Source: Candidatus Peribacteria bacterium
Lineage (GTDB): Bacteria > Patescibacteriota > Gracilibacteria > UBA1369 > 2-02-FULL-48-14
Length of the DNA: 40,948 bases
Assembly: GCA_943354505.1 (NCBI GenBank)
Contig: CALRCE010000008.1
Coordinates: forward strand, 1 to 40,948
Direction of reading: 5' to 3'
Notes under the pieces: generated by a model
Seen by the model: only the letters and a program-made list of their open reading frames with translations
Told to the model about the DNA's origin: nothing
Databases searched by the model: none
Shown here: piece after piece, positions 24,124-26,974 of the stretch
How positions within the stretch are numbered: the first letter of the stretch is position 1
How the letters are laid out: the number at the start of each line of letters is the position of its first letter
Translations under genes and position numbers: made by a program

Positions 24124-25122
24124 TTAAGAGAAATAGGACAAAAGTTTTTTAGGACTAACTCGCTTAGAACTACCCTCGACCCGCACAAAAAGCAAGGTTT
24201 TGAGCCCGGCAAAGAAAACGCGCGGAGAACGAAATAAAACAAAAATACCCTTCATCATTTCGTAAAGCAGCACGCTCAAGGCCACGCTAAAACCGTAACG
24301 AAAGGTGAAGTTGTTTTTGAGCAGCAAAAAATGGTTCTTGTAAGAGTTGAGCCGTGCATAATCCTTCTTCAGTCTGTCCGCCGCCGCGAGGCCTTTAAGG
24401 GTTTGGCCTTTTTCTCCTGCACGATTGGCAACGGTTCGTGCATGCCAAGCCCAGACTTCAGGAAAGATCGTAATGTCCTCCCCCAACCAACGCAGACGGT
24501 AGGCTAAATCGATGTCTTCTTTGTACATCCAAAATCGCTCATCAAAAAGCAAGTGCGCCTTGCCTTGAAGCTTTGGAATCACCGCCGTTCGAATCAAAAA
24601 AACGGCCCCCGAAATTCCGAAAAAATGCGCCAAGTTTTTATCGTACTGCCCTGTGTCTTCTTCCCCTTGGCCTCGATCAAAAAAATGATGATTTTTCTTG
24701 CCCACGATTCCAAAGCTATCGATTTGCTTCGTCAGCTCGTGCTTTGCCACATTCCAGTAATACAACTTTCCGGCCACCATGGTCAGATCCTTCTGCTCTT
24801 CCATTCGCTTCATGAAACGCGCGACCGTGGGCACATGCAACAAAACATCGCTGGTCACCACCAAATACAAATCGTGGCCGGGGGCGCGCTCTAAAATCGC
24901 ATTGTACGAACGCCCGTACCCAATGTTGCCGTCGGGGTGACGAAAGTAATCAAATTCCGGATAATTTTTTGCGATGAACTTTTTAACCCCCTCGTTCCAA
25001 GCCGTGTCCAAAACCACCACCGTCGCCCCCATCTTTTTTCGCAAAACTTCCACCGCTGGCAGACTCTCCTTCAGATAAGGAAGGTCATTGTAAGTGTTGA
25101 GACCAATGAGAACTTTGGACAT
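24124..25122 (-). CDS. family 2 glycosyltransferase
   Basis: A 332-residue GT2 enzyme: VLIGLNTYNDLPYLKESLPAVEVL, VVVLDTAWNEGVKKFIAKNYPEFDYFRHPDGNIGYGRSYNAIL, the divalent-metal region DLYLVVTSDVLLHVPT, and a late block FDERFWMYKEDIDLAYRLRWLGEDITIFPEVWAWHAR typical of the rhamnosyltransferase-like group. The basic, hydrophobic C-terminus suggests membrane association. ATG 25122 starts the family N-terminus; a longer frame would begin inside the palindromic element and adds 17 unlikely residues. First gene of a three-gene operon, so its leader comes from that element. Confidence 0.9.
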   Translation of the reverse strand: MSKVLIGLNTYNDLPYLKESLPAVEVLRKKMGATVVVLDTAWNEGVKKFIAKNYPEFDYFRHPDGNIGYGRSYNAILERAPGHDLYLVVTSDVLLHVPTVARFMKRMEEQKDLTMVAGKLYYWNVAKHELTKQIDSFGIVGKKNHHFFDRGQGEEDTGQYDKNLAHFFGISGAVFLIRTAVIPKLQGKAHLLFDERFWMYKEDIDLAYRLRWLGEDITIFPEVWAWHARTVANRAGEKGQTLKGLAAADRLKKDYARLNSYKNHFLLLKNNFTFRYGFSVALSVLLYEMMKGIFVLFRSPRVFFAGLKTLLFVRVEGSSKRVSPKKLLSYFS

Positions 25123-25123
25123 C

Positions 25124-25304
25124 AGGGCTTGTGACAAAATAAATTCCTTTAGATTGCATTCAGTGCGCGCCATATAGGGCTGCTACGACTGAGCAAAATC
25201 TCGAGGAGTACTAGAAGTACTTTGAGAGGTTTTGTGATGGAGTAGTGGTTCTAGACGGTGATGCAATGAATGTAAGACAGGGAATTTATTTTGTCACAAG
25301 CCCT
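25124..25304. repeat. 181-nt single-axis palindromic (MITE-like or structured) element
   Basis: The outer 24 bases at each end are a perfect inverted repeat (25124-25147 and 25281-25304, starting AGGGCTTGTGACAAAAT). The whole interior continues as an imperfect palindrome about the same axis at 25214, ending in AGTACT-AGA-AGTACT at the centre (25207-25221). The element starts one base before the glycosyltransferase ATG region and its last base is the first base (plus strand) of the neighbouring gene's stop codon. There is no transposase and no ORF. It could be a MITE-like insertion or a long RNA hairpin. Confidence 0.8.
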
Positions 25305-26974
25305 TAGTCAGCAAGCATAAGATATCCGGAGAACGTGCTGGAATACGCTTCGGTGTGGCTTTGAGCAATCGCCCCACTGAACCCATCCAAGAAGTCTTCA
25401 AAATCCATAGCGGTGTCGCTGACTTCCAAGTCCAGCTGTTCACGCAGTGCACGAAGATCTCCGGCAAAGTTGGCGAGTTCGCCCGCATCCAAAAGGATCA
25501 AGCCTTGATCCGCATCGTCCAACTTGTCCTTGAGCTTGGAATACAACACGGAATCTGCAATGGTTTCAGGATTTTCTTGTTCCCAAGCCGTTGCAGTCGT
25601 GAGCAAAACGCGTCCATCCAAAACTCCATAGATGAGTTGCATTTCACTGCCCGTCACCAACGAAGGCAGAGGGGAATCCTGAGTGCGAGGCAACTCCGTC
25701 AAATCGATAGAAACTTTCGTGAAATCGGTGCCTTGAATTTGAACCGTATCTTTAGAAACCGCCCCGGGCAAAGCCTCTTCAAAAACCGTCATGAGACCTG
25801 AAATTTGCCCGTCCAACTTATTGAGCAACTCTTGAGCATGCTCCTCATCCGAGCTGCTGTCCACGTACAAAGTGATGCCAGGGAAAAGTCCGGAGTCGTT
25901 TGTATTCAAAGCCAAAACATAGCCTCTGTCGAACCAGCTCATGAAGTCTTCGTCAAAATCCATTCCAAAATAGTTTCTAAACCCTTCACGGATCGCATCC
26001 AAAGAACTGGTGTCGTCACCCAATTTGTCGGCCTGCTCCAGCGTTTGCTGCAAACCATAAGATTCAAAGTAAGCCATCAAACCTTCGGCGGGAACTTCTT
26101 TGTACAAGTAAGGATCTTCCTTGGGCACAACATCAAAGGAGAGCCCGGCATCCTTGGCTTTTTCTTTATTTGCCAGCATGTTCACATCAAAGCTCAGACC
26201 TTCTGCTTCGGCACGAACCACAATGCTCTGTCTCGAAATCGCAGAAGGAATGTTGGCGATGGAAAGGCCCGTAGAAAGGTTGAGGGTGTCATTGTAAAGT
26301 TCAGGGAACAAAAAGCCGTAGAACACAAAGTCCTGCCCAATCTCACCCATGGCTTCCTGATAATTTTCAGCGTTCCACAAACTGTCACCTTCATCTTGAT
26401 CGAGCATGCTCACCACATTTTCAGGAGTGTCAGAAACAAGAAGCAAATCCTCATGAACCGTGGCGTAAAAAGTGGCCTCGGCATTCACGTACACATCCCG
26501 TCCACTGAGCACCTTCTTTTCAAAACTTCCTGCTTCAGAAAGGGTATCAAAAACAGAGACCATCTGATCGGGATCGCCCAAAGTCGTCACGCTAAAAACC
26601 TCCGCACCCTCCTCTTTTGGACGGGCTCCGTAGACCCAGCGGAACTGCTCACCAAAAGCCGGCATCAAATCTTTCTCATAATCCAAACCCGCATCCGCAA
26701 ATTGCGCATTGAAACTCTCCGCAACCGTTCGGGTCAAACGTCCCGCATCACCCAATTTTTCTTCCAAAGTTTGGACAGCGGCAAACTGTTCGTCGTTGTT
26801 CAAAGAGTAAGAAAGTACCATCCCCACGTCAGCAGGCATGAAGTTTTCTGGAATCAATCCTTGTCCGCTCACGTGAGCTCCCAAGTCGGCCTCTCCACCA
26901 AAACAAGCAGTCAAGAAGACACTAGACGTCACCGTTGCAAAAAGCAGAAAACGAGCGCTGCGAAGAAAAGACAT
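25304..26974 (-). CDS. large lipoprotein, DUF3352-like
   Basis: A 556-residue lipoprotein: signal sequence with lipobox LTAC (Cys at about 24), then a long soluble domain with repeated alpha/beta blocks. MPADVGMVLSYSLNNDEQFAAVQTLEEKLG, the DVYVNAEATFYATVHEDLLLVSDTPENVVSMLDQ block and the C-terminal LIYGVLDGRVLLTTATAWE are similar to DUF3352 proteins. Function is unknown. Its stop codon overlaps the end of the palindromic element by one base, so the 3' end of its mRNA would run straight into the hairpin, which may terminate or stabilise it. Confidence 0.78.
   Translation of the reverse strand: MSFLRSARFLLFATVTSSVFLTACFGGEADLGAHVSGQGLIPENFMPADVGMVLSYSLNNDEQFAAVQTLEEKLGDAGRLTRTVAESFNAQFADAGLDYEKDLMPAFGEQFRWVYGARPKEEGAEVFSVTTLGDPDQMVSVFDTLSEAGSFEKKVLSGRDVYVNAEATFYATVHEDLLLVSDTPENVVSMLDQDEGDSLWNAENYQEAMGEIGQDFVFYGFLFPELYNDTLNLSTGLSIANIPSAISRQSIVVRAEAEGLSFDVNMLANKEKAKDAGLSFDVVPKEDPYLYKEVPAEGLMAYFESYGLQQTLEQADKLGDDTSSLDAIREGFRNYFGMDFDEDFMSWFDRGYVLALNTNDSGLFPGITLYVDSSSDEEHAQELLNKLDGQISGLMTVFEEALPGAVSKDTVQIQGTDFTKVSIDLTELPRTQDSPLPSLVTGSEMQLIYGVLDGRVLLTTATAWEQENPETIADSVLYSKLKDKLDDADQGLILLDAGELANFAGDLRALREQLDLEVSDTAMDFEDFLDGFSGAIAQSHTEAYSSTFSGYLMLAD

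Follow-up and report, generated by a model that had tools for sequence, protein, structure and literature searches.

We sought to establish what the 181-nt palindrome at 25124-25304 is, and how it came to separate two genes on the same strand. Nothing else in the window, by which we mean the whole 40,948-nt stretch of DNA that was analysed, outranked it in an inverted-repeat comparison. Its arms (25124-25147 and 25281-25304) are inverted repeats of each other, perfect over 24 bp, and between them the sequence continues as an imperfect palindrome about an axis at 25214, with 108 of the 181 positions self-complementary in an ungapped comparison. This confirmed the symmetry that had been noticed in a first-pass annotation of the locus. 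Comparison with the family described below assigned the outermost A/T pair to a 3-bp flanking repeat, leaving a terminal repeat of 23 bp for the element proper. No protein-coding ORF was found in the element. The features of the locus are as follows.

25125-25303, plus strand (the strand with the conserved hairpin): putative palindromic mobile element proper, 179 nt, GGGC...GCCC, delimited by a leave-one-out covariance model and 28 aligned copies.
25125-25147, plus strand: left terminal inverted repeat GGGCTTGTGACAAAATAAATTCC, perfect complement of 25281-25303; helix 1 of the family structure.
25281-25303, minus strand: right terminal inverted repeat, perfect complement of 25125-25147; helix 1 of the family structure.
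25205-25223, plus strand: hairpin apex, GAGTACTAGAAGTACTTTG region, with family consensus CGTACTANNAGTACG, placed from the fold and the family alignment.
25307-26974, minus strand: upstream gene, DUF3352 lipoprotein of 556 aa (Pfam PF11832, E 1.9e-17), whose orthologues adjoin the glycosyltransferase in four relatives.
24124-25122, minus strand: downstream gene, family 2-like glycosyltransferase of 332 aa (weak Pfam PF13641, E 2.6e-4; conserved start).
25304-25306, minus strand: 3-bp flanking repeat, TAA on the gene strand, identical with the lipoprotein stop codon (gene coordinates and family flanks).
25122-25124, minus strand: 3-bp flanking repeat that reads TGA in the sense of the genes and TCA on the plus strand, and shares its A with the start codon (ATG) of the glycosyltransferase; two of three bases match the other side.

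Folding had been proposed at the outset as a measure of stem stability. As RNA, the plus strand of the palindrome reached -106.5 kcal/mol, whereas its shuffled versions averaged -48.4 and none of 200 folded as stably (z = -14). The minus strand reached -70.4, and folds less well because most wobble-capable interior mismatches are G.T, not A.C, when read on the plus strand (11 vs 1 in the window copy).

The flanking genes gave a direct view of the site. In four relatives from the same family (G001, G002, G004 and G005) the lipoprotein and glycosyltransferase orthologues are neighbours with a gap of 0-8 nt, the ends of the matches being 6-8 nt apart, and the glycosyltransferase start, M(A/S)KVLIGLNTY-like, is conserved among relatives. 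In G001 the lipoprotein stop and glycosyltransferase start overlap as TAATG, whereas in the window 179 nt separate TAA from TGATG. The tight placement against the lipoprotein stop that had been remarked on earlier was borne out: the element has that stop codon (25304-25306) on one side and the start codon of the glycosyltransferase (ATG, 25120-25122) on the other, and both codons are read from the minus strand. Because the orthologous genes abut in four relatives, the palindrome was evidently inserted between them, as judged from this comparison of gene neighbourhoods. The simplest history would be that the element entered at the TAA within an ancestral GACTAATGTCC (the TAATG stop/start overlap) and produced a 3-bp repeat, in which case the lipoprotein stop codon would have been kept and the second TAA would later have changed to TGA.

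If the palindrome was inserted, the question becomes whether it has relatives elsewhere. In its own genome (1.16 Mb, 97.7% completeness) the window copy was the sole copy by BLAST, by terminal-repeat pattern and by covariance model. No match was found in 352 other genomes of its class, a search of the order likewise returned nothing significant, and phages and plasmids gave no match with the window copy and one G399 copy as queries. In a phylum sample of 380 genomes, matches over bases 14-168 were obtained in two genomes of one genus belonging to another class. A search of that class with one copy located ~25 places in G399, 10 in G455 and 4 in G481, a total of ~39 that is a manual count of distinct places, some of them partial; G441, a relative of the copy-rich G399, had no copies. 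A BLASTN check suggested in the first-pass annotation was answered in two parts, with dispersed copies carrying 3-bp target repeats in other genomes and none in the element's own. When 28 intact copies, excluding that of the window, were used to train a covariance model, it recovered 25125-25303 at 149.4 bits on the plus strand (E 2.9e-32, model E-values being rough) and at 60.8 bits on the minus strand, and had no other match in 1.07 Mb of the own genome. By these sequence matches the palindrome is one member of a family whose other copies are scattered through genomes elsewhere in the phylum. This family of small non-autonomous elements (~178 nt, with terminal inverted repeats and no ORF) is apparently undescribed. 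The Rfam 15 covariance models gave no match to 24800-25600 up to E 5, and a description of such elements in these bacteria was not found in a literature search whose coverage left out most subscription journals. Four 19-mer matches in genome contigs were set aside as chance, the second arm being absent nearby, as were three viral-contig matches to one terminal repeat, where the partner repeat was absent.

Intact copies measured 176-180 nt; their first base was G, followed by a second G except in one copy, and their last was C. Terminal repeats were perfect over 23 bp in the window copy and extended for at least 20 bp in most copies, and an AATAA just inside the ends was nearly invariant across the family. 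In the alignment the interior is the conserved part, while the ends change between subfamilies yet stay paired: the outer 12 nt differ among subfamilies with pairing kept, and copies within one subfamily have identical ends. The subfamily ends were GGCCTCGTCCRT; GGGCTTGGTAAT; GGGGACTGACGT or GGCGACTGACTT; GGCGCCGTAAAT; and the window's GGGCTTGTGACA, and end types in the family were named GGCCTCGTCC-, GGGCTTGGTAAT- and GGGGACTGACGT-type. Copy L208 carries one subfamily's ends with an interior resembling that of another, and therefore ends and interior can reassort. Three family copies in G399 and G455 (L226:271-525, L232:328-543 and L237:363-576) have a smaller hairpin inserted in the upper stem, that is, hairpins have landed inside hairpins.

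Among 29 copies, 97.3% of 1821 pair cells were standard pairs. Two-sided changes were seen in 42 of 63 stem pairs (303 cells), as high a value being reached in 0 of 500 shuffles; the copies are related, and these pair counts do not represent independent events. The covariation score over the same copies was 0.525, compared with 0.079-0.114 when partners were slid. Within the terminal helix, 19 of 26 pairs had changed on both sides and 697 of 752 cells were Watson-Crick, and interior wobble cells comprised 158 G.U vs 5 A.C. The same strand folded better in 29/29 copies. One insertion is common to G399 and G455, with flanks matching on both sides and 151 of 178 positions identical; there, 3 double changes and 5 single changes keep the pair and 4 pairs are broken. 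Pairing was thus kept by compensatory change both across copies and at one shared insertion site, which is the outcome that the covariation check proposed earlier had looked for. As read from the alignment, the family keeps a one-strand hairpin through compensatory and wobble changes. If the arms were held alike by templated correction of one arm by the other at the DNA level, then Watson-Crick pairs would be expected and not a wobble bias on one strand. Because of this, we infer that selection acts on the RNA (or folded single strand) of the plus strand. The one observation pointing to plus-strand transcription is this wobble bias; the strand may be transcribed and the ~70-bp hairpin functional as RNA, most likely in the element's own spread or stability.

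The flanks of the copies bear on how the element inserts. Of the 28 copies other than the window's, 22 had TTA or TAA as left flank, and in 14 the two 3-bp flanks were identical, the triplet being TTA or TAA in every case. Permutation of the flanks predicted 8.7 matches (p 0.003); target preference, seen as a bias in the flanks themselves, accounts for some of the agreement. The window flanks, TAA and TGA, agree in two of three bases. Duplication of a 3-bp TWA target on insertion is supported by these flanks, at a weaker level. No copy (0/29) lay inside an ORF. Open frames of at least 150 codons entered the right end in 15 copies and the left end in 3, a bias in orientation with p 0.008, or 0.02 with the window and a duplicate locus removed. 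Frames entering the right end run antisense to the conserved hairpin, as is the case for most copies. Both the position at stop codons and the orientation would follow from the target, because TTA on the plus strand reads TAA on the other strand; selection on the mRNA is an alternative explanation of placement and orientation.

Our preferred reading, which we regard as probable, is that the palindrome is a MITE-like non-autonomous element with TWA insertion of the PIF/Harbinger type, whose body encodes a long hairpin RNA and which is moved by a DDE transposase in trans. The first-pass annotation had offered a MITE-like or REP-like element or, alternatively, a giant hairpin RNA. The MITE-like and hairpin-RNA descriptions are both supported, and at once, while the REP-like one fell away on size (~178 nt). 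Assignment as a MITE is supported by size, terminal repeats, flanking repeats and dispersed copies; no autonomous partner turned up in the searches described below. Also weighing against the preferred reading are the presence of a single copy in the own genome, the two-of-three agreement of the window's flanks and the half of the copies in which the flanking repeat is inexact. A DDE transposase would act in trans on the terminal repeats to move the element, and judged by the TWA target the candidate mover would be IS5/PIF-Harbinger-like. In bacteria the IS1031 group has a TNA target. A TWA target repeat is a feature of PIF/Harbinger (PMC4482050; PMC2836001), elements that PMC4482050 relates to the bacterial IS5 family; the bacterial IS5 elements studied in that paper target ANT, not TWA. 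The ends of one subfamily were matched against G399 and G455, and no autonomous partner was seen among the hits. The transposase screen covered the single domain PF01609, which was absent from G000, G001, G455 and G441, and the sole PF01609 protein in the five genomes was an IS1634-family transposase in G399. That transposase adjoins a G399 copy and was considered as the mover, which was unsupported, the copy having both of its own ends. REP/RAYT identity was rejected as well: the element is 178 nt long with TWA repeats and ends without a tag, vs a REP of 20-40 bp with a GTAG-type tag that occurs in great numbers (PMC3733652).

A different mode of movement would account for several of the same observations. 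The element could move by its structure and not by its end sequence, with the plus-strand hairpin (RNA or ssDNA) as intermediate and ends that need only pair. Subfamily ends that differ yet pair, with two-sided changes in 19 of 26 terminal-helix pairs, conservation in the interior and not at the ends, constraint on one strand only, and the failure to find a transposase with matching ends are all in keeping with such a route. We nevertheless think it unlikely, since ends are identical within a subfamily, as expected if a transposase reads them, the terminal helix is Watson-Crick in 697 of 752 cells, which suggests a DNA-level constraint there, and a 3-bp TWA repeat is typical of DDE transposases. 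The general form of this idea, that bacteria have a class of mobile element in which the shape of the hairpin is what is recognised, with arms that are free in sequence provided both change together and a one-strand RNA or ssDNA hairpin that is copied or moved, we hold to be unlikely.

Nor need the element be selfish. A structured RNA or mRNA element useful to the host, in 3' end processing or gene insulation, could spread by transfer and recombination, and would be expected to show the strong structural conservation, the position at gene ends with 15 right-end vs 3 left-end frames, and the compensatory changes at the fixed site common to two genomes. Against this, sites differ between genera, four relatives lack the element at the window locus, flanking repeats mark insertions, ~25 places in one genome stand against none in its relative G441, and in most copies the flanking genes run antisense to the conserved strand; we judge such a role distinctly improbable. 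A local inverted duplication by template switching, or an assembly artefact, has next to no chance of being the origin. Palindromes can form in this way and the copy is single in its own genome, but full-length homologues in three distant genomes and the leave-one-out match at E 2.9e-32 refute the idea, and the arms differ, with mismatches that are G.U-biased on one strand. Inverted reads, an origin that the first-pass annotation had allowed for, are excluded because the interior arms differ and homologous copies occur in independent genomes; the same annotation would have abandoned a mobile element or structured RNA had there been neither copies nor compensatory changes, and both were found.

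For a MITE-like element moved in trans, as we favour, effects at this locus would probably arise in two ways. Loss of the stop/start overlap would separate lipoprotein and glycosyltransferase genes that were probably translationally coupled. The operon transcribes the strand opposite to the conserved hairpin strand, and in its mRNA this complementary strand would form the weaker hairpin, which may be open to RNase III as in Correia elements (PMC10969869). The element as a transcription terminator was rejected, no terminator-like site being found at it, and its ends did not supply stop codons in all frames above the level of shuffled sequence. The glycosyltransferase frame is open into the element as far as an ATG at 25173 (25125-25173). 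An in-frame TTG (25135-25137) is preceded at a short distance by AAAGGAA, so that the element might give an alternative glycosyltransferase start.

Several known families share parts of this description. Tourist-like PIF/Harbinger MITEs (e.g. mPing) and the IS5 family are likewise short, without an ORF, with terminal repeats starting in GG and a 3-bp TTA/TAA target (PMC2836001; PMC4482050), whereas the window family has no IS5-like partner found, has ends that vary by subfamily and has an interior that is a conserved one-strand hairpin. Correia/NEMIS elements of Neisseria (107 and 155 bp) resemble it in size, 24-bp terminal repeats and intergenic position, and their transcripts form long hairpins cut by RNase III (PMC2229807; PMC10969869); they have TA at the termini and conserved ends, in contrast to GG...CC termini, TWA outside and variable ends here. 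ERIC/IRU of enterobacteria are also intergenic palindromes that fold along their length, are co-transcribed with their neighbours and affect mRNA according to orientation (PMC2229807), but measure 127 bp, have a 7-bp terminal repeat and live in other hosts, and we found no comparable one-strand wobble bias described for them. QMITE2 of Coxiella burnetii is similar in length (~190 bp), lies mainly in 3' untranslated regions and gives a stem-loop transcript (PMC10969869); its REP has a GTAG tag, its host is unrelated, and we found no covarying variable ends described for it. Rickettsia palindromic elements (RPEs) are selfish palindromes of ~150 bp in small genomes (PMC10969869). RPEs lie in frame within genes and encode peptides, whereas in the window family 29/29 copies lie between genes.

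The usual view of bacterial MITEs is that of decayed transposons, in which the ends are kept and the middle drifts. The present family reverses this, with a middle conserved as a one-strand hairpin and ends re-specified in pairs, in copies that adjoin stop codons in a preferred orientation in small compact genomes. With it, the question of whether RNA structure can be under selection in a mobile element becomes open to test. The insertion that G399 and G455 have in common, and a distribution that is patchy across classes, provide markers of gene exchange among these bacteria.

Other long hairpins occur in the own genome and in G001, of the same genus; kinship with the window element was rejected for want of convincing sequence similarity or any family-model match. 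A second, unrelated family in the own genome (L028:10420-10519, L038:1892-1995, L066:9828-9992, L080:11852-11983 and L088:1906-2005) has a common core GACGAAGTCGGGAG...CGGGTCCCGTTTCGAGGA and long perfect outer stems wholly different in each copy. Another hairpin there has two copies (L091:7133-7255 and L094:3632-3755), 91% identical over 104 nt, whose arms have different outermost 10 nt in the two copies and yet remain complementary; at L091 the hairpin occupies the space that separates two convergent genes. G001 has a multicopy family (L123:15859-16102, L123:18157-18407, L110:11406-11504, L116:4556-4653 and L115:4869-4970), often paired ~35 nt apart, in which the core GGATCATGCATCCGAG...CTTCGCTCC is conserved and the outer stems co-change. 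At L111:7060-7226 of G001 a 167-nt full-length palindrome sits tightly between two same-strand genes, placed like the window element and without significant sequence similarity to it. Finally, a palindromic repeat of 162-164 nt with ends AGAGGGTATTT (L149:5516-5679, L161:12521-12682) has three copies in G001, one of which carries a two-base change in both arms with pairing kept.
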